Position numbers and translations under genes: made by a program. The notes under the pieces are model-generated. The model saw nothing but the letters and a program-made list of their open reading frames with translations. It did not search any database and was not told where the DNA came from. 46,438 bases of DNA from Planctomycetales bacterium (GTDB taxonomy: Bacteria; Planctomycetota; Planctomycetia; Pirellulales; Pirellulaceae): positions 5,497 through 51,934 of the forward strand of contig JAGQPS010000003.1 of assembly GCA_020426595.1 (NCBI GenBank), read 5' to 3'. This document shows, in pieces, positions 8,958 through 24,898 of the stretch; the stretch's first letter is position 1, and every line of letters starts with the position of its first letter.

Positions 8958-10766
8958 CTACTCTTGTGAAACCGAACCGCGCGAGCGGAGAAGCACTGCC
9001 AAGGCGGCGTTTCTCCGCTTCGCTATTTCTTGTCGGCGCAGCGAACCTTTGGCGGTGAGCGTGCCTTCCTCCATCGAGAACGGCTCAAACGTCAGCACGA
9101 CTCGCCACGGCCAGGAGTATTTCGGGAGGTCGTCCGTGGCCGCGAGCAATTGGCTGGCTAATCGCCTCGTCTCCTCGTCGGCGACAGGCCCTGGATCATT
9201 TCCCTCGATGGTATCCCACTGGGATGATTCGGACGAACCGTTCGAGCTCCAAGCATGCACGTCCAAGATGAAGCGATCGACCGAGCGAGGCGATGAGGCC
9301 TCCAGGTCGGCTTGAGCCCGGGAAAGCTGCTCGGCCCACCGAGGCGCAAGGTTCTCGAGCGCGGCTTGCTGGACAACCAACAAACCACAAGGCCGACCGT
9401 CGACGTCACCAGTGAAATACGCTTGTGAAACCCACTCAAGGTCAACCAATCGCCGCTCGATTTCCGAGGGGACGATCTTCAGTCCACCGGGAGTCACGAT
9501 GAGTTCCTTCTTGCGCCCGACGAGCGTTAGGAACCCATCGGAATCGAGGCGTCCCAGGTCGCCGGTCGAGAACCAACCGTCGTCGAGTACTTCGCGGGTC
9601 ATCTCTTCTTGACGGTAGTAACCCAACATGATGCTGGGCCCACGAGCCATGACTTCGCCGTCGTCGGCCAGGCGGACTTCGACGTTCGACAAGGGGCGCC
9701 CCACGGCCCCGCGTTTCATACGGCCGGGCGAACTCGACGTGATCACGGGTGATGTTTCCGTGAGACCATAACCGGTGATCAACGTGACTTGTTGTTCGAC
9801 GAACCAGTCGTACACGGCGTCCGGCAAAGGGGCTCCGCCGCAATTACAGACGCGGATTCGATCTCCCAGGATCGCGCGAAGCGAGCCGGGTTCATGCAGC
9901 GCGTCGCGTGCCGCTGCTTGCCGCCAACACCACTGATAAAAGAGTGGTACCGCATTGATGTAGGTGGGACGCGTTTCCCGAATCTCATCGAACCAATGTT
10001 CCTTACCCGAACCGACGATCAATCGGCAGCCCGCCGCGACCCAGGTCGCGAGATCACAAGTCCGCGCGAAGATGTGGGTCATCGGTAGTAGGGCGTAGCG
10101 AATGTCATGCGGGAAGAGTTCGATCGCCGCGAGCTTGCCCTCGACGTTCGCGACCAAGTTGGTCTGACTGAGCATCACTCCCTTGGGTTCACCCGTGGTC
10201 CCCGAGGTGTAGAGCAGCGTCGTCATTTCGTCGGGCGATGTTTGGCGTTCGCGCCAACCGCGAAAACGCGAGAACAACGCCTCGGTGGTAGCCGGCGCTT
10301 CACGGTCCCTGGCCGGAAGTGAGATATCCCAAGTCCAGCCGCTCGGGAGTAGCTCAAGAACCTGGCCATCCGCGTGCGCCGACCGAGCGCCATCCACGTT
10401 CGGCGATACAAGCAAGCCGCGACACCCCGCATGGTCAAGCAAACGAGCGACTTGCGGCGGTGGCAGGGCGGCGTGCAGCGGCACGTGCACGCCACCCACA
10501 CCTTGCAAGGCCCAATCCCAGACGATCCACTCCCACCGATTCTCGGACCACGTCGCCACCCGGTCTCCAGTTTCGATACCGGCGTCGATCAATCGCTGGC
10601 CCGCGTGATCAACCGCAATCGCTAATTGCCGCCATGTCCAATCGTGCCATGTCCCGTCGACGCTTGCCGTCAGCGCGATCCTCTCCGGCTCCGCTCGCAA
10701 ACGACGTTCCAGGTAGTCCCATAGCCGCGTGGGTGTCTCGGCGGATTGGTTCACATCGTTCGTCAC
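8958..10766 (-). CDS. AMP-dependent acyl-CoA synthetase/ligase, long-chain type
   Basis: Activates a carboxylic acid, probably a long-chain fatty acid, through an acyl-adenylate to the CoA thioester. The 602-residue product carries the adenylate-forming core motifs: YTSGTTGEPKGVM (186-198), TGYGLTETSPV, STGDLGRLDSDGFLTLVGRK, and the C-terminal lysine region LTAKGSLRRQ. An extra acidic stretch of about 80 residues between the main and C-terminal parts (around EQLSRAQADLEASSPRS and SSNGSSESSQWDTIEGN) follows the long-chain FACL layout. The chosen start is GTG 10766, preceded by GAGGA seven bases upstream; the frame is open to 10907. No lipid genes are adjacent, so the substrate is uncertain. 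Confidence 0.92.
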   Translation of the reverse strand: MTNDVNQSAETPTRLWDYLERRLRAEPERIALTASVDGTWHDWTWRQLAIAVDHAGQRLIDAGIETGDRVATWSENRWEWIVWDWALQGVGGVHVPLHAALPPPQVARLLDHAGCRGLLVSPNVDGARSAHADGQVLELLPSGWTWDISLPARDREAPATTEALFSRFRGWRERQTSPDEMTTLLYTSGTTGEPKGVMLSQTNLVANVEGKLAAIELFPHDIRYALLPMTHIFARTCDLATWVAAGCRLIVGSGKEHWFDEIRETRPTYINAVPLFYQWCWRQAAARDALHEPGSLRAILGDRIRVCNCGGAPLPDAVYDWFVEQQVTLITGYGLTETSPVITSSSPGRMKRGAVGRPLSNVEVRLADDGEVMARGPSIMLGYYRQEEMTREVLDDGWFSTGDLGRLDSDGFLTLVGRKKELIVTPGGLKIVPSEIERRLVDLEWVSQAYFTGDVDGRPCGLLVVQQAALENLAPRWAEQLSRAQADLEASSPRSVDRFILDVHAWSSNGSSESSQWDTIEGNDPGPVADEETRRLASQLLAATDDLPKYSWPWRVVLTFEPFSMEEGTLTAKGSLRRQEIAKRRNAALAVLLRSRGSVSQE

Positions 10767-11125
10767 GCACTCATCCTCGAACTCGCTGATGGACCACGGC
10801 CAGACTCTCGACCGTCTCCCGTCTCGATGACTCCCCGCACGGGGGCAAACCGAATCACCGACCGCCGGTGGCTTGGATCGACCGTGATCCGCTTGATCGC
10901 GTTCCATTGTGCCGGGACGATCGGCTAACAGAAGTCCCCTGTCTCATCCCAAGCCCTCGGCTGGAGATCCGCTCGACGCGAGCCCCTGAAACGACGACGG
11001 AGCCTCGATCGAACAGGCGGGCCGCGGCGCGGCGACTCGCCGACCGTTGGCAGCTCGGGGCTCGGGTGATAGAGTGGTCGGGAGTTTGGCGTAGTCGTGT
11101 TGCCGCGAGAACAGGTGATCGATCA
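10767..11125. other. Divergent 359-base intergenic region
   Basis: It separates the acyl-CoA ligase gene (minus) from the DUF4430-like gene (plus). The only signal I can support is the promoter-like pair at 11047-11075. Confidence 0.4.
11047..11075 (+). promoter_or_regulatory. Candidate promoter of the DUF4430-DUF6580 pair
   Basis: TTGGCA (11047-11052), a 17-base spacer and TAGAGT (11070-11075). A transcript would start near 11082, about 44 bases before the first gene. Confidence 0.45.
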
Positions 11126-14317: not shown

Positions 14318-15631
14318 CTAGCCGTCGAAGCGGCGCACGAGAACGGCGGCCGCTTGGCCTTGAGGCGTCACATTGACGTTGATGAAGCTGGCTCCTGGAT
14401 CGGCCCCCGAGGCTTGATTCACCGTCACCGGGCACTCGGGATCGGGAGTCCGGTAGCTGGGAATCCCAAACAACTTTCCGTGACGCAGGGCCAAGAGGCT
14501 GCCAATCGCCTCCACCACGCCGCTCCCAGCGCCCAGGTTTCCGTGAAACGCCTTCATCGCCACGACGGGAACTCCCTGAGGCCCAAACACATCGGCGATC
14601 GCTTGAGCCTCTTCTTGGTCGCAGCGCGAAGTGCCAAGACCGTGGGCATTGACGTGCCCCACGTCGCTGGGCTTGAGCCCCGCGCGTTCGATCGTCTTTT
14701 GCAGCACATTGCGAATCGCCGTGCGATAGTCCGCCACTCCTTGGGCATCGACCGCGGCCGATGAAGCGGAGCTGAGTACCTCGCCAAATACTTCCGCTCC
14801 CCGGGCCTGAGCCGACTCCAGCGTCTCGAGGACCAGCGCGCCGGCTCCCTCACCCACGACCATGCCTTGACGGTTGAGATCGAAGGGACGGCAACTCTCA
14901 CCCGGCGGATCCTCGCCCGGCGCGATCTGCTCTTGCAGCAGCACGTGGAGGGTTCGCAATTGATGCAAACGAGTCCCCGTGGCTCCAGCCAGCATGATGT
15001 CGGCACGGCCTCGTTGGAGAGTCGTCACGGCCTCGGCGATCGCGGCGTTGCTCGACGCCTCGCGCAACGTGAGTGAATTGCTCGCGCCGCGCAAGTCATT
15101 GAAGATCGCGATATGACTGGCCGGCATGTTGGGTAGGTACTTGAGCAACCACAACGGCTCGACCTTGGGCATGCCTTGCTCGGCCCACTGCTCAAAGTGA
15201 AACTCGCCGGCCTCGTCGAGGCACTTGAGAATGCCGGCCCGGTACTCGTCGGGATTGGTCAGCAAGTAATCGCAACCGAACACCACGCCGACTCGATCGG
15301 GATTGTGACCGAGTTCGTAAAAACCGGTACCCGAGAGCGCGAGTTGGGCGGCCGCCGTGCCCATGTAGATTTCGCGGCACATCATCCGGAGGCTCTTTTT
15401 GATCTGCCTCGAAAGAGTTTTTTCCAAGGGACCGAAGTCACCGATTTCCCCTTGGAAGTCACGGGCCTCGCCGGCGACTCGAGTCGGAAGATGGTCGACC
15501 GGCAGCATCTCCATGGGCACGATCCCACTGACGCCCTGATCCAGCCGATCCCAGACCTGCTCGATCGCACCGCCAAGAGGGCTCACTACGCCCATGCCGG
15601 TAATCACGATGCGCCGTGGTCCGTTCACCAT
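14318..15631 (-). CDS. Beta-ketoacyl synthase fold protein lacking the catalytic Cys (Glu191)
   Basis: A thiolase-fold ketosynthase homologue of 437 residues, near the usual FabF length. The N-terminal RRIVITGMGVVSPLG, the acceptor-loop region, VGEGAGALVLE (259-269), VNAHGLGT (327-334; His330) and the Lys360 region are recognisable. The nucleophile segment, normally STACATSN, reads LTLREASSN: Cys is replaced by Glu191 (codon GAG at 15059-15061). The second His of the K-x-x-x-GH motif reads GN (Asn365). Loss of both residues argues against condensation. Known Cys-less homologues are chain-length factors or decarboxylases (Gln), so a partner or scaffold role is possible but inferred. ATG 15631 gives a natural N-terminus. 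Neighbours do not belong to a fatty-acid or polyketide cluster. Confidence 0.88.
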   Translation of the reverse strand: MVNGPRRIVITGMGVVSPLGGAIEQVWDRLDQGVSGIVPMEMLPVDHLPTRVAGEARDFQGEIGDFGPLEKTLSRQIKKSLRMMCREIYMGTAAAQLALSGTGFYELGHNPDRVGVVFGCDYLLTNPDEYRAGILKCLDEAGEFHFEQWAEQGMPKVEPLWLLKYLPNMPASHIAIFNDLRGASNSLTLREASSNAAIAEAVTTLQRGRADIMLAGATGTRLHQLRTLHVLLQEQIAPGEDPPGESCRPFDLNRQGMVVGEGAGALVLETLESAQARGAEVFGEVLSSASSAAVDAQGVADYRTAIRNVLQKTIERAGLKPSDVGHVNAHGLGTSRCDQEEAQAIADVFGPQGVPVVAMKAFHGNLGAGSGVVEAIGSLLALRHGKLFGIPSYRTPDPECPVTVNQASGADPGASFINVNVTPQGQAAAVLVRRFDG

Positions 15632-15980: not shown

Positions 15981-17255
15981 CTAGTAGCGGTTGTAGTTGT
16001 TGACGCCAGGCCGAGCGGCGGTGGGGATCTGCCCGGCCGCGGCACCCGGCAAGGCATTGAGCTCGTTAGTGGCTTTGACCTCCAGGAACAGCAAGGCCTC
16101 TCCCCGGTTGTCCTGACCACCTAGACCGGGAAGGAGCCCGGGACCGAGCAGGCCATTGTTTTGCTGCCCACCAGGAGTCGCGACGACTCCACACGAGAGC
16201 ACGAGCACATGGTCCACCGGCCATTTGAATCGCTCGTGAAGACGCCAGGTCACCAACTGGGGCACCTGAATGTCGACCCGTTGCACCGACCCCGTGACGG
16301 TCGGCACGTTCACGTTGACGTCGAGCATTCGCTCGATCTGGTTGATGTTGCACCGCACCACCGCCTCCATGTGGACTCGGTCGCGGTCCTTCAGAGCACT
16401 CATCTCAAGGGAAAACCCTTCGTTGATCTGGCGGTACAGATAGCCGTAGTTGTTATTGGCGTCGTACCCCAAACCGGAGACGTAGTTGCGAGGCTGGGTG
16501 CGAGTGAGCACCTTGGTCTGCCCGCTCTCGAGATACAGATTTTGGCCTTGGAGTAAGCGAAAATCGTTGCGTCGACTGAGGTCGCCGTAGAGCCGCCCGG
16601 CGACTTCCTTGGACATCAACCAACCTTGAACCCCTTCCGAACGCACCTCGACGGGAACGAGCTGGTTCTTCTGAATCGCCTCGGCTCGCCATGACGGATT
16701 GCCGACTTGGACCAGGTAGAAGGTCAGAACGTGGGTTCGCGAGTTGGGATCGACGAACCGGTCCACGATGTTGTGGACCAAGGCTTGGACGCCGGGTTCG
16801 TGATAGACGTGAAGTTTGTCGTAGTCAGCGCTGAGAATGCCGAGCGGTTCTCCGAACCACAAGTCGGTTCCCGTTTCGCGCAAGATCCAATCGATGATCT
16901 CTTGCTGAGGCCGTTCCTCTCGGGCGAACCGATGAGTAAACGGGGAAATGTCGTAGGTTCGCCACTGTTGGTTGGCCGTCCGAGGCAGCACGTCGACGCC
17001 CGGTGTGACCTGAGCGACGTGGGCCAGCGGTTGCTGGGAGGCGGGGGCGGAAATCGGCGAAACCGATCCCGTTGTTGGATTGGGGGCGTAGGCGGTCGAC
17101 TGAGGTGAGTACGTGGTGGTTCCACGAATCGGAGCGGAAACGCCGGAGCCCGGAGTAGCCCCGCTTGGCACCTGCGAACGCCAGCCATCCTGAGCCATCA
17201 AGGTCAAGGGCGCGACCCAAAGGGCGAAGAGCAACGGAAGGATGTAGGCACGCAT
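15981..17255 (-). CDS. Exported protein with secretin-like features, function unknown
   Basis: The 424-residue product starts with a Sec signal peptide (MRAYILPLLFALWVAPLTLM, cleavage near AQDG). Residues 23-95 are a Pro/Ser/Thr-rich linker. A first folded part from about 100 (PQQEIIDWILRETGTDLWFG, then KLHVYHEPGVQALVHNIVDR) resembles the ring-building N-domains of secretins. A later part has amphipathic strands such as VLTFYLVQVGNPSW, VHMEAVVRCNINQIE and VQRVDIQVPQLVTWRL. The tail is Gly/Asn-rich (PGGQQNNGLLGPGLLPGLGG). I do not see a complete secretin pore domain, so I only suggest an outer-envelope role. ATG 17255 is chosen because it creates the signal peptide; the upstream open frame to 17636 is Arg-rich noise. 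No type II or IV secretion genes are nearby. Confidence 0.75.
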   Translation of the reverse strand: MRAYILPLLFALWVAPLTLMAQDGWRSQVPSGATPGSGVSAPIRGTTTYSPQSTAYAPNPTTGSVSPISAPASQQPLAHVAQVTPGVDVLPRTANQQWRTYDISPFTHRFAREERPQQEIIDWILRETGTDLWFGEPLGILSADYDKLHVYHEPGVQALVHNIVDRFVDPNSRTHVLTFYLVQVGNPSWRAEAIQKNQLVPVEVRSEGVQGWLMSKEVAGRLYGDLSRRNDFRLLQGQNLYLESGQTKVLTRTQPRNYVSGLGYDANNNYGYLYRQINEGFSLEMSALKDRDRVHMEAVVRCNINQIERMLDVNVNVPTVTGSVQRVDIQVPQLVTWRLHERFKWPVDHVLVLSCGVVATPGGQQNNGLLGPGLLPGLGGQDNRGEALLFLEVKATNELNALPGAAAGQIPTAARPGVNNYNRY

Positions 17256-18099
17256 GAAAAGGCTCCGCCTCGACAAGATAAAGGCCCCGTCCAGCTCGCT
17301 TCGAAGCCAGCGTCGTCGCAACTGCGCCGCGCGGGAAACAAGGGTCGAGCCAAGGGTGGTAGGTCGTATAGCGGGATCACGGAAACCACACAAGACGAAC
17401 CGCCGAGAGGACCGGAATCGGGCGGAGCCAACGGCGCGAGGTCGGGCAGGGGCCCTCGGGCGAACAGCGCCCTCGGGGGAAAGCGTCGGCCGGGGACCGC
17501 GCTGGAACCTCGGAGTGGTTCTTATCGCTCGCCACCGGGCAGGCCTAATGACTTCCAGGACCGAGTCTTGTGCGGGATCGACGAGAAAAACCAGGCAACT
17601 TAGGTCAACCAACACTCTCGCCAACCTTGCCCGCACAAGCTGAGAAAGTCGAAGGTTTTTGGTCGTTCACCGCATCGACGCGGCAATCCTAACTCTCTTT
17701 CAAAACAAGACTTAGGATCACGGACGGGAATGTCAGGCGGGACTCTCTCGCCAAACCCGTCCCCAAGGAGGACTCGCCCCTAGTTGACGCAACCGGCAAA
17801 GTCGCCGTAACGTCTCGTCTTTCGCGGTGAACCGAGGCCTGCTTAATCGCAGTTGTCGCCTCGGTGGGAAACGAGGTGATTCGCTCAGACTCCATGGACT
17901 CGGAGTAGCGCGAATCCTCAGGATGGTCAGGCGGGGCAGTCTGGCCCAGTTAACCGTAGGGACACGGTCCTCATTTTCCCTCCTGCGGCCTCTCGGCCGC
18001 ACGCTGTTGGACATCCGCACACCATGACCGTCGATCCGTCGCGGATCGCGGAGTGTCGCCAGTGCGGATGATTGAACGTCTCTAAGGGAGTGTCTCTGT
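17256..18099. other. 844-base divergent gap
   Basis: No protein-like ORF. It separates two genes for exported proteins read outward. The only clear structure is the nested inverted repeat at 18012-18070 next to the plus-strand gene. Confidence 0.45.
18012..18070 (+). promoter_or_regulatory. Nested hairpin in the leader of the thioredoxin/CAP-like gene
   Basis: CATCCGCAC (18012-18020) pairs with GTGCGGATG (18062-18070). Inside it CGATCCG (18032-18038) pairs with CGGATCG (18042-18048) around a three-base loop, extendable by CCG/CGG with one bulge. The structure ends 12 bases before the AAGGGAG ribosome-binding site (18083-18089). Confidence 0.4.
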
Positions 18100-20746: not shown

Positions 20747-20803
20747 CCCCCGCGAATCTCGTCTCTCCGCTCTCGTCTCTACTCACTACTCACTACTCAC
20801 TAC
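20747..20803 (-). repeat. Purine-rich repeat block (minus-strand view) with 7-base tandem units
   Basis: CTACTCA occurs three times plus a partial unit at 20779-20803. Next to it are CTC-rich repeats (20756-20780) and a 14-base word (20747-20760) whose reverse complement GAGATTCGCGGGGG recurs at 14301-14314. The block overlaps the last codons of the haem/propeller gene. Confidence 0.7.
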
Positions 20804-23800
20804 CCTCTACCACCCACCGAGCTCGTCCCAAGAAGGCGAACTCCCAAGACCAATTGTTGGCGTGGCAAAGGATCTCGACTTCCACCTCTTTTCCGGCCAT
20901 CGGAGTCAGATCCACCGTCACCTCGGTCCAACCTTGGGGCGCGACTTCCTGATCGATCGCTCGACGCTCAAGCGTGGCGCCGTCGACCTTGATCTCAAGC
21001 TCCCAATCTCCTCGCATGTCGCGCCCGACAGGTAGCACCCAAGCCACGGAATCTCCCGCGGGAACAAACACGCGTCCGAAGACTCGGCAAGGCTCCTCTT
21101 CGGAAATGGGATGAACGCGGACCGCTCCACGTCGCCCCTGGGACTCGGCCAACAACTCGAGTTCGCCTTCTCCGACCTTGTCGCATTCGAAACCGGGCAA
21201 GACGCACGATAACAAGGCCTTCATTCGCCGAGGATCGTGCGAGCGTCCCGCCATCGACTCTAGCGAACCCGCGATATGCGTGCTGTTGGGATCGTCCGCC
21301 GGACCGTCGAGCACGAGCAACGCGAACAAATCGCGGAGCTCCTGCTCGGTAACGCTGCTTTCCAGATTCTCGGGCATGAGCGACAACGGACTGACTCGCC
21401 GCTCCAAGATCTGGTCGGGCCTCAAGGTGATCACGGCATCGCCCTGGGTTTTGAGGACGAGACGGTTGGGCGAGTCCTCGATCACCAATCCCGTGACGAC
21501 TTGGCCGTCATCGGTTTCCACGAGAGTCGCCTGATACGACGCGCCAATCACGAGACTCGGATCCAGTACGTTGGACAGTAGTTGATCGAAGGCGCCGCGG
21601 CCGTTGCCCGTGAGTTCTGGACCCACTTGGGCACCGGTCCCATGCAGTTGGTGGCATGTGCCACAGACTCGGTCAAACACCAATCGTCCCGCGACTGGGT
21701 CGCCCCATCCCGCTTGGAGCAAGCTTCGGGTTTGGGCGATGACGGCCTCGCGTCGCGGATCGCGTTCATCTCGCAACGTCCCCCAGACCGAAGCGATCCG
21801 TTCGCGCCAAGCATCGTCGCCTGTCGCCATGAGCTTGCGCACCTGATTGACGTTTAGCGCCGAGGGTGGGAGCTGTTCGCTTTCGATCGCGCTAAGCACG
21901 GTCTCGCCCCAGGCCTGACGCCCCGTGAGCACTTCCATGATGGCGGGGCGATCCGCCGCCGCGGCTTCGTGCCAAGCCGTCAATAGGCTCGGTCCCAAAG
22001 CGGGATCGCTCAATGACGAGACCCAAGCCAAGCCCGCTTGCCGCATTTCGGGATTCTCGTCCGATAGGGCATTGGCGATCCAGGCGTGAGCCCAGGTCGC
22101 GGCCCGCGCGGGAGAGCGTTTCGCGACCGATCGAATCGCTCGCATGCGTTCGGGCACCGATCGGTCGCGATCGGTCGCGCGGGCCAAGACGGCGTCCCAG
22201 CTCTCCGTCTCGAGTCCCTCCGCCAATTCCCCGAAGTCCGCCAGCTCACCGCGTTCCGCGGCGGCGGCGCGGCAAAGCTCGACCACCACCGACTGCCACG
22301 CATCGTTGGTACCAGAGTCCGCTGTTAGCCAGCGATCGACCAGATTGGTCAGAGCATCGCGCGCGGTCGCGGCATCCGCGTCACTATCAAGCACCGCCGA
22401 TACGCTTACCGCGGCGTCCGCCGGCGTGGTCGTGGGCAACTGCAAGATCCAGCGGTAGGCTCGCGCCACGACTTCTCGCGCATGCGGCGGTACATCCGTC
22501 GCCTGTATCGCCTCGACATAGGCCGAGCCGTGTTGATCAAGTAACGGACGCAGATGAGCCCAGACGAGGCGGGCCGTCAGGCCATCATCCGGCGCCTGTC
22601 GGAGCAGTTCGACCAGAGCCGGCATACTCGCCTCGGCCGACACATCGCCTCGTTGAGTCCATTTGCTGATCGCGACGACCAGCTGGGCCCGAGCCGCCGC
22701 ATCGGGTTCGGTTCCCGCGAGTCCGATGAGACTCGTCGCGAGTCCTGGTCGCGGATGGTCGCCGAGGTGCCGGTAGACCCACGAGCGAAGCACGGGATCC
22801 GGCAACTGACACCAGCGAGCCGCCACATCAGTGGCGAGGGGGCCGCGTGAAATACGAGTCCACAGCGCCTCGCGGCGCTGAGTCTCATCGGCGGATTCGT
22901 TCTCGACACAAGCCTCGAGCTTCGCGTCGATCGTCGCATCGGCGTCGCCAGCGTCGATCAGCAAACGACGACAGGTGGCTCGCTCGTAAACACTCTCGCT
23001 CGCCAAGCCTTCGATCCATCCTTCGACTCCCCAGCTCCCCAAGTCCACGCGATAGTCCGCCAGCGCCGCGCCGTAGCGCACTCGGTAGAGCCGGCCCTTG
23101 AGCCGATCGATGCCATCGGGATCGCGACGAGCATCCTGGTAGCAGTGGTACCGATCGTACCAGTCCAACAAATACAGCGATCCATCGGGACCGGTTTGCT
23201 GCGCGACCGGCATGAACCACGCATCGTTGGCCTGCACGAAGTCTGGCTCACCCGTACCGCGATAGGTCGCTCCGTGGCGAGTCACGCTGTCGACATTGAT
23301 GCAATTGCCGTGAATGTTCCCCATGTACAACCGTCGTCGGTACGGCTCGGGATAGGCGGGACTATCGAAATAATGAATGCCGCAGTAAGCCGCCTTTTGG
23401 TGGCGATGGTCGACGATCGACTCGATCTTCCAAGTCCCTGCGGGATACGCCCCAGCCTGGCGATGGTAGTAGCCGCCTTCGGTCAGGTGCCACAAGTGAT
23501 CAATCACGCAGGCGCTGAGGAAGGCGTCGCCTTCGGAGTTCCAAGCGATGCCCCACGGATTGCTCGTCCCCTCGGCGAAAAGCTCGAAGCGATGAGTGCG
23601 TGGGTCGATGCGGAACATGGCGCAGGTGAATTCAAAAACGCGCCCGTCCTGTTCGACGCGGCTACGGTTAAACACGCCATTGAGACCATAAAGGAATCCG
23701 TCCGGTCCCCAAGTCAGCGAGTTGGGAAGTTCGTGCGTGTCATCGCGTCCGAATCCGGTCACGACGACTTGCCGCTCATCGGCCACATCATCGCCATCGG

Positions 23801-24266
23801 TATCGCGAAGGAACAAAATGTCCGGCGCGTTGGCCACCCAAACGCCGCCGTAACCCAAAGCGATTCCGCTGGGGATGTTGAGCCCCTCCGCGAAAATCTT
23901 GACCGAGTCGACCGCGCCATCACCGTCGGTGTCCTCCAGGATCTTGATGCGATCCTGTCCCTCACCTGGCTCGGAGCGTGGGTACTCGACGCTTTCACAA
24001 ACCCAGAAACGCCCCCGCTCATCGATGGTCATCGCCACCGGATTGACCAAGTGCGGTTCGCAGGCGACGACGTCGACGACAAACCCGTCCGGCACGGTCA
24101 TCCGCGCGGCGGCTTCGGCCGCGGGGTAGGGGTCGTTCGGCGGCTGACTTTGATTGTGAGGAATCTGGCGCTCTTGGGCTCCGGCGAACGGCAGCCCGGC
24201 CGACAGCACCAGCACCGCGACACAGCAACGGACGAAGGTGTGGCGAAAGCTCGGTCCCCACTTCAT
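20793..24266 (-). CDS. PVC-type secreted dehydrogenase-like propeller/HEAT protein with one haem-c domain
   Basis: A periplasmic protein of 1157 residues. The signal peptide is at 1-31 (FVRCCVAVLVLSAGLPFAGA). The next part is a beta-propeller of the 'membrane-bound dehydrogenase' type (VPDGFVVDVVACEPHLVNPV, TDGDGAVD, GPDGFLYGLNGVFN, MGNIHGNCINVD). A long alpha-helical HEAT-like stretch (about 440-850) follows. A single c-type haem site CGTCH lies at 868-872, inside a domain ending in SPLSLMPENLESSV, whose Met may be the axial ligand. The last 130 residues are a beta-rich domain not usually named. Members are frequent in planctomycetes and verrucomicrobia and are thought to act in electron transfer during carbohydrate breakdown; no substrate is shown. 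ATG 24266 is chosen for the signal peptide. The stop codon lies inside a tandem repeat. Confidence 0.92.
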   Translation of the reverse strand: MKWGPSFRHTFVRCCVAVLVLSAGLPFAGAQERQIPHNQSQPPNDPYPAAEAAARMTVPDGFVVDVVACEPHLVNPVAMTIDERGRFWVCESVEYPRSEPGEGQDRIKILEDTDGDGAVDSVKIFAEGLNIPSGIALGYGGVWVANAPDILFLRDTDGDDVADERQVVVTGFGRDDTHELPNSLTWGPDGFLYGLNGVFNRSRVEQDGRVFEFTCAMFRIDPRTHRFELFAEGTSNPWGIAWNSEGDAFLSACVIDHLWHLTEGGYYHRQAGAYPAGTWKIESIVDHRHQKAAYCGIHYFDSPAYPEPYRRRLYMGNIHGNCINVDSVTRHGATYRGTGEPDFVQANDAWFMPVAQQTGPDGSLYLLDWYDRYHCYQDARRDPDGIDRLKGRLYRVRYGAALADYRVDLGSWGVEGWIEGLASESVYERATCRRLLIDAGDADATIDAKLEACVENESADETQRREALWTRISRGPLATDVAARWCQLPDPVLRSWVYRHLGDHPRPGLATSLIGLAGTEPDAAARAQLVVAISKWTQRGDVSAEASMPALVELLRQAPDDGLTARLVWAHLRPLLDQHGSAYVEAIQATDVPPHAREVVARAYRWILQLPTTTPADAAVSVSAVLDSDADAATARDALTNLVDRWLTADSGTNDAWQSVVVELCRAAAAERGELADFGELAEGLETESWDAVLARATDRDRSVPERMRAIRSVAKRSPARAATWAHAWIANALSDENPEMRQAGLAWVSSLSDPALGPSLLTAWHEAAAADRPAIMEVLTGRQAWGETVLSAIESEQLPPSALNVNQVRKLMATGDDAWRERIASVWGTLRDERDPRREAVIAQTRSLLQAGWGDPVAGRLVFDRVCGTCHQLHGTGAQVGPELTGNGRGAFDQLLSNVLDPSLVIGASYQATLVETDDGQVVTGLVIEDSPNRLVLKTQGDAVITLRPDQILERRVSPLSLMPENLESSVTEQELRDLFALLVLDGPADDPNSTHIAGSLESMAGRSHDPRRMKALLSCVLPGFECDKVGEGELELLAESQGRRGAVRVHPISEEEPCRVFGRVFVPAGDSVAWVLPVGRDMRGDWELEIKVDGATLERRAIDQEVAPQGWTEVTVDLTPMAGKEVEVEILCHANNWSWEFAFLGRARWVVEGSE

Positions 24267-24898
24267 CAAGAAACGGATGGGTCGAAAGTAGGCGTGTTGG
24301 CTCTCAAGTCGCTGGTGAACATGTGGGTGATTCGACGGGGCGACTCGACCTCGCGGCAGGTTCATGCTCGGACCTCGACACGAATGAAGTGGTGGGCAGC
24401 TGGTATCGGATGCGACTCGTGAAGGAAAGCCGAACGAAAGCCAGAACGCTTTCCCATCCAAGCAAGTCGAGCCGCAGAATAACAGATCGCGGTACGAGCC
24501 GCCGCCCGCGGAGCCCAAGACGGGGGTTACACGGTGTGGCTTGGCCTCGCGCGGTAGGGCTTGCGATCCATGACGGCGAGAAAGCCGAGTGCGGCGAACG
24601 TTGCTTGGTTCTCGCGATTTCATGTCGTGGCTTGTTGGATGCCACGAACGAAAGTCGCTAGCGGTGTGACGAGCGGGAGCCGCGTAAGCGAAGTCGAAAA
24701 CGCCCGTCGCTCATACGCTCTTAGATGTTTCGCTTGAAGGGACGGGGCGAAGTGAGAGTGTTGATGGCGCGACGAGTTGTTGGCTGGTTTGAGAATGCGA
24801 AGAATCCCTCGCTCACGCTTCGGGTTTCCTTTGGTTTTCCACGCTACTTAATTGGTCGACTGGGGCGGAGCGTGAAATGTGCGATATCCGGAAACGCG
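24267..24898. other. 632-base gap holding repeat copy B
   Basis: No gene seen. It is the 5' leader of the haem/propeller gene and the 3' flank of the kinase gene, and carries the dispersed repeat at 24748-24878. Confidence 0.5.
24748..24878 (+). repeat. Dispersed intergenic repeat, full copy B
   Basis: The core 24798-24845 matches 14099-14146 with one difference, and 31 bases of it match 5201-5231 on the minus strand. The left flank GAGTGTTGATGGCGCGACG and right flank GACTGGGGCGGAGCGTGAAA also match copy A2. It lies about 20 bases beyond the kinase stop codon, antisense to that gene. Confidence 0.85.

Follow-up and report, generated by a model that had tools for sequence, protein, structure and literature searches.

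A class-wide Cys-less ketosynthase-like protein of Planctomycetia with Glu at the catalytic position: a candidate KS-beta subunit

Cys-less ketosynthases in described systems and in the window

Ketosynthase (KS) subunits that lack the catalytic Cys are known chiefly from secondary metabolism. The KS-beta subunits or chain-length factors (CLF) of type II polyketide synthases, such as the actinorhodin CLF (1tqy_B), retain the whole KS fold and the Lys, have lost the Cys and the Phe gate, and are found in tandem with a KS-alpha. In KSQ loading domains the condensation residue is replaced as well. For planctomycetes, Rattray et al. (2009; PMC2649909) described two Cys-less FabF paralogues of Rhodopirellula baltica, RB4527 with Glu and RB3714 with Asp, to which they ascribed a “different enzyme substrate and function”, leaving the role at that. 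Our literature search returned nothing direct on Glu-type chain-length factors or on planctomycete KS partners.

We analyzed a 46,438-nucleotide stretch of a Planctomycetales genome (the window), in which a ketosynthase-fold protein with Glu in place of the catalytic Cys had been noticed in a first-pass annotation. The reading frame lies on the minus strand, where it is open throughout, while the plus strand is broken by stops:

14318-15631, minus strand: Cys-less ketosynthase-like protein of the FabF fold, 437 aa (family 1, putative KS-beta), assigned from Pfam, alignment, structure model and orthologue set

Both halves of the ketosynthase domain were recognized by Pfam (ketoacyl-synt N-terminal half, 119.7 bits; C-terminal half, 69.9 bits), and a structure model built from 21 orthologues (mean pLDDT 77) aligned over the full chain with FabF structures (Z up to 51) and with the actinorhodin CLF (Z 48.7). 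This common fold by itself says nothing on the function of the protein. Because confidence was low over much of residues 123-167, including the tunnel segment described below, the model coordinates were not interpreted. The protein is not a FabF (KAS II) by the usual measures: it scored 230.8 bits against the FabF equivalog TIGR03150, for which the curated cut-off is 493.75, and its catalytic Cys is replaced by Glu191. A search of PHROGs gave no match.

RB4527 is almost certainly the orthologue of the window protein, as judged from the Glu, His, Leu, Lys, Asn and Glu that both share at the residues listed by Rattray et al., and RB3714 corresponds to a second Cys-less family. The Glu replacement is therefore not new (PMC2649909). 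What we add is its class-wide distribution, its single origin, its association with tandem KS pairs, the tunnel motif and a connection to essentiality.

Active-site residues and the tunnel segment

Residues were mapped by aligning the window protein with FabF proteins of known structure, and their conservation was determined in 140 distinct orthologues from the order Pirellulales and its sister families. The alignment confirmed what had been read from the sequence at first pass, namely Glu at the Cys position, Asn in the GH motif (GN) and a retained His and Lys, now placed on the minus strand; the phenylalanine gate is lost as well:

15059-15061, minus strand: Glu191 (codon GAG), at the position of the catalytic Cys in the alignment to FabF
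14642-14644, minus strand: His330, equivalent to FabF His303; present in 118/140 orthologues
14552-14554, minus strand: Lys360, equivalent to FabF Lys335; present in 140/140 orthologues
14537-14539, minus strand: Asn365, at the second catalytic His (FabF His340); Asn in 122/140 and Ser in 18/140 orthologues
14351-14365, minus strand: residues 423-427, PQGQA, aligned to the FGFGG loop (phenylalanine gate) of FabF

Residue 191 is Glu in 120 orthologues, Asp in 19 and Gly in one, and Cys in none. The initial description of Glu as unusual thus holds in comparison with canonical ketosynthases and Gln-type CLFs, but within this clade an acidic residue is the rule, and it has been known in R. baltica since 2009 (PMC2649909). 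Another Cys does not fill the active site either: Cys400 aligns to a Cys in the C-terminal half of B. subtilis FabF, distant in sequence from the catalytic one.

Like the KS-beta subunits, the window protein combines the KS fold with the loss of the catalytic Cys, but it carries Glu where classical CLFs of the aromatic type have Gln. An annotated CLF from a Streptomyces chartreusis plasmid (NZ_CP108842) has this Gln and lacks the His retained in the window protein, so to say that the latter works like a CLF claims more than to say that it is one. Unlike KSQ loading domains, which are defined by Gln at the site together with both catalytic His residues, the window protein is a stand-alone protein with Glu191, His330 and, in place of the second His, Asn365.

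Since an acidic residue occupies the site in 139/140 orthologues, the protein might still condense, with this residue as an unusual nucleophile. However, the protein has also lost the second His and the Phe gate, and within the whole Cys-less clade the site is also occupied by Gly, Ser, Asn or Gln. We know of no precedent for an acidic nucleophile in a ketosynthase fold. Even with the different substrate or function proposed in the 2009 study (PMC2649909) in its favor, we regard such a reaction as very improbable.

The strongest conservation of the protein is found not in the active site but in a segment 21 to 32 residues N-terminal of the former Cys:

15122-15157, minus strand: residues 159-170, PLWLLKYLPNMP, the 12-residue stretch with the highest conservation in the family, aligned to FabF positions 131-142 in the acyl tunnel/dimer region

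Trp161 in this segment is present in all 140 orthologues and in 23/24 and 13/13 members of the other Cys-less groups; FabF and KS-alpha proteins have other residues at this position. Lys164 is not invariant, being basic in 132/140 orthologues and Asn in the second Cys-less copy of this genome. In published work, this region lies at the end of the cavity between KS and CLF, and Met138 of FabB and His138 of ApeO, from the KS/CLF pair ApeO-ApeC, are described as lining the respective cavities (PMC8358021); counted from the Cys, PLWLLKYLPNMP corresponds to the positions of both residues. The proposed KS-alpha carries Glu at Cys-29, -27 and -25, where KS-beta has L, K/R and L, a pattern that suggests a possible charge pairing across the dimer.

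Three genomes (G070, G106 and G154) encode a related KS with a nearly identical tunnel motif in which the Cys is retained:

L107:7393-8820, minus strand: KS with PLWLLKHLPNM and an intact Cys-Lys-His, in tandem with another KS; similar genes at L108 and L145

From their sequences, these proteins may represent an intermediate, as if the pairing surface predated the loss of catalysis.

Origin, gene neighborhood and candidate partners

In a tree of 80 ketosynthases, calculated with the active-site columns removed, a single branch (support 99/97, recovered in 100% of 200 bootstrap trees) separates all 48 Cys-less planctomycete sequences from the others. In several families outside Planctomycetia, and in one genome inside the class (G286), the Cys-less gene stands in tandem with a Cys-containing KS, and such pairs are often adjoined by FabA/FabZ-like dehydratases and a long ACP of about 130 aa. 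In Planctomycetia, the KS-alpha operon still contains FabZ, ACP and KS, but no beta gene:

contig C266: KS-alpha operon of this genome with dehydratases, ACP and KS

Two Cys-less families occur in Planctomycetia that are unlinked to each other, the one of the window and a second one, whose member in this genome (contig C9) has Asp at the Cys site. Both probably descend from an ancestral KS-beta that was duplicated in Planctomycetia.

Among relatives, a gene of the window's family is found downstream of fabF, in the same orientation, in 51 loci, in some cases with the cluster fabD-fabG-acpP-fabF on one side and nusA, infB and rbfA on the other. In this genome, fabF is found on a separate contig (C632), and the window's contig carries no second KS, ACP or FabZ-like gene. 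The early remark that no acyl carrier protein or active ketosynthase lies nearby is therefore correct for this contig but misleading for the family: the gene stands alone here, and in a number of relatives it adjoins fabF or KS-alpha. One upstream neighbor is conserved:

15981-17636, minus strand: protein without a Pfam match whose N-terminus resembles a secretion signal; homologues adjoin family 1 genes in 19 other loci, an association only

Elsewhere in the window, an AMP-binding (acyl-CoA ligase-like) gene at 8958-10907 (minus strand) lies about 3.4 kb from the ketosynthase-like gene, a purely positional observation, and 20793-24623 (minus strand) encodes a 1276-aa protein with a DUF7133 domain, of a kind often found in planctomycetes.

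Similar gene arrangements are found in other systems. The planctomycete ACPs scored 43.6-47.3 bits against PRK06508, which we take to be the AcpXL model, with a cut-off of 83, and membership in an AcpXL-type system was rejected on this basis. With an ACP, FabZ and a tandem pair of KS genes, the layout resembles in its architecture the rhizobial very-long-chain fatty acid cluster acpXL-fabZXL-fabF2XL-fabF1XL, apparently essential in Bradyrhizobium (PMC5613085). The non-canonical FabF pairs of anammox bacteria (kuste3606, kuste2805) also combine a KS with a Cys-less KS-like protein in tandem, but the latter have Val or Phe at the site, and the planctomycete acidic clade branches separately from them (support 98). 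We therefore assign them a separate origin and rejected a kinship with the anammox ladderane KS-like proteins. In an anammox-type genome (G192), two loci (L266, L272) harbor Cys-less KS-like genes with Val or Phe adjoining a Cys-containing KS, and their residues agree with those listed for kuste3606 and kuste2805 by Rattray et al. (2009). Nor are acidic KS-like subunits confined to planctomycetes: a Streptomyces plasmid encodes a KS with Asp at the Cys position (L282:9438-10724, plus strand), clustered with a long ACP and two dehydratases.

Of the three roles first suggested for the window protein, a non-condensing partner subunit is the best supported, by the tandem pairs, the single Cys-less clade and the constraint on the tunnel/dimer segment; no support was found for a sensor. 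We therefore favor, as the probable explanation, a non-condensing, chain-length-factor-like KS-beta subunit that pairs with a dedicated KS and serves an essential acyl synthesis. This reading explains why the gene stems from tandem pairs, why nucleophile and gate were lost and why the tunnel segment is constrained. The partner would be a Cys-containing ketosynthase, most likely the KS-alpha of contig C266 beside FabZ-like dehydratases and the long ACP, or alternatively the canonical FabF. KS-beta would supply the second half of the dimer, and its PLWLLKYLPNM segment, with Trp161, would form the far wall of the acyl tunnel, by which the subunit could influence which chain is produced. Glu191, together with His330 and Lys360, may form a structural network that fills the inactive catalytic site. 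Against this reading stands that the gene in Planctomycetia is unlinked from the proposed KS-alpha and often lies beside fabF instead, a difference from type II polyketide synthase CLFs, as is its likely place in primary, essential metabolism.

A purely structural role also does not account for the state of the pocket, which is better preserved in the window's family (His, Lys and Asn in 118, 140 and 122 of 140) than among relatives with tandem genes. For this reason, the main rival is an activity that was retained or newly acquired, malonyl decarboxylation being one example. His and Asn serve as the decarboxylation pair in FabH-type enzymes; by analogy, His330 and Asn365 could allow a KSQ-like protein to convert malonyl-ACP to acetyl-ACP for initiation, with Glu blocking condensation. 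Strong preservation of His330, Lys360 and Asn365 and the proximity to a fatty-acid operon in many relatives agree with the decarboxylase that had also been envisaged at first pass. However, FabH, whose absence would have favored a primer-making decarboxylase, is encoded here and in almost every relative, so chains can be initiated without the proposed activity. Moreover, residue 191 is Glu, Asp or Gly but never Gln, His330 is missing in 22/140 orthologues, residue 365 is Ser in some, and the highest constraint falls on the tunnel segment instead of the pocket. We consider this decarboxylase reading unlikely.

Somewhat less likely still is a non-catalytic homodimer that binds acyl-ACP and acts as a regulator or scaffold of the fatty-acid synthase. 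The preserved fold and tunnel segment, the lost nucleophile and Phe gate and the position beside fabF in relatives agree with such a role, but the window protein has no regulatory domain, and its nearest relatives in other lineages stand in tandem with an active KS, the usual mark of an obligate pair.

Conservation and probable essentiality of the Cys-less families

Ketosynthase matches were obtained in 60/60 relatives searched, and only one of them, a genome that is 72% complete, lacks a close orthologue (44-70% identity in the others); one of these copies is divided between two contig ends. The orthologue was also found in a wider, class-level set of genomes. Differences to the nearest relative amount to 22%, 18% and 53% at the three codon positions, and their concentration at third positions is the pattern seen under purifying selection. 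The window gene thus encodes a maintained protein and is not a pseudogene unique to this genome, as had been considered at the outset. The loss of the catalytic Cys might suggest a decaying FabF copy, but with class-wide conservation, open frames, purifying selection and likely essentiality, the probability of decay is negligible.

A transposon study of Planctopirus limnophila reported one paralogue group of five such proteins, all of them essential (PMC10632474). The genome that we take to be P. limnophila (G241) contains exactly five stand-alone ketosynthases, two of which, encoded at C1:3333198-3334469 and C1:2198353-2199606, are Cys-less, both with Glu; its remaining KS domains belong to open frames longer than 2,000 aa. 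We infer that these five are the published essential ones and hence include both Cys-less genes, so that the window's family and the second family are both probably essential and, if so, not interchangeable.

The KS-beta interpretation can be extended, tentatively, to a system in which one KS-alpha is shared by two unlinked Cys-less KS-betas, each specifying its own product in an essential acyl synthesis of Planctomycetia, and in which the acidic residue is retained for a second activity, for example malonyl-ACP decarboxylation. This extension is possible but clearly less probable than the pairing itself.

Our work yields testable partners and, in the lineage of G070, G106 and G154, possible intermediates. 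If the KS-beta interpretation is true, it would account for the finding that the five stand-alone ketosynthases of P. limnophila are all essential, and a class-wide, probably essential Cys-less pair would mean that the fatty-acid machinery of planctomycetes differs from the textbook type.
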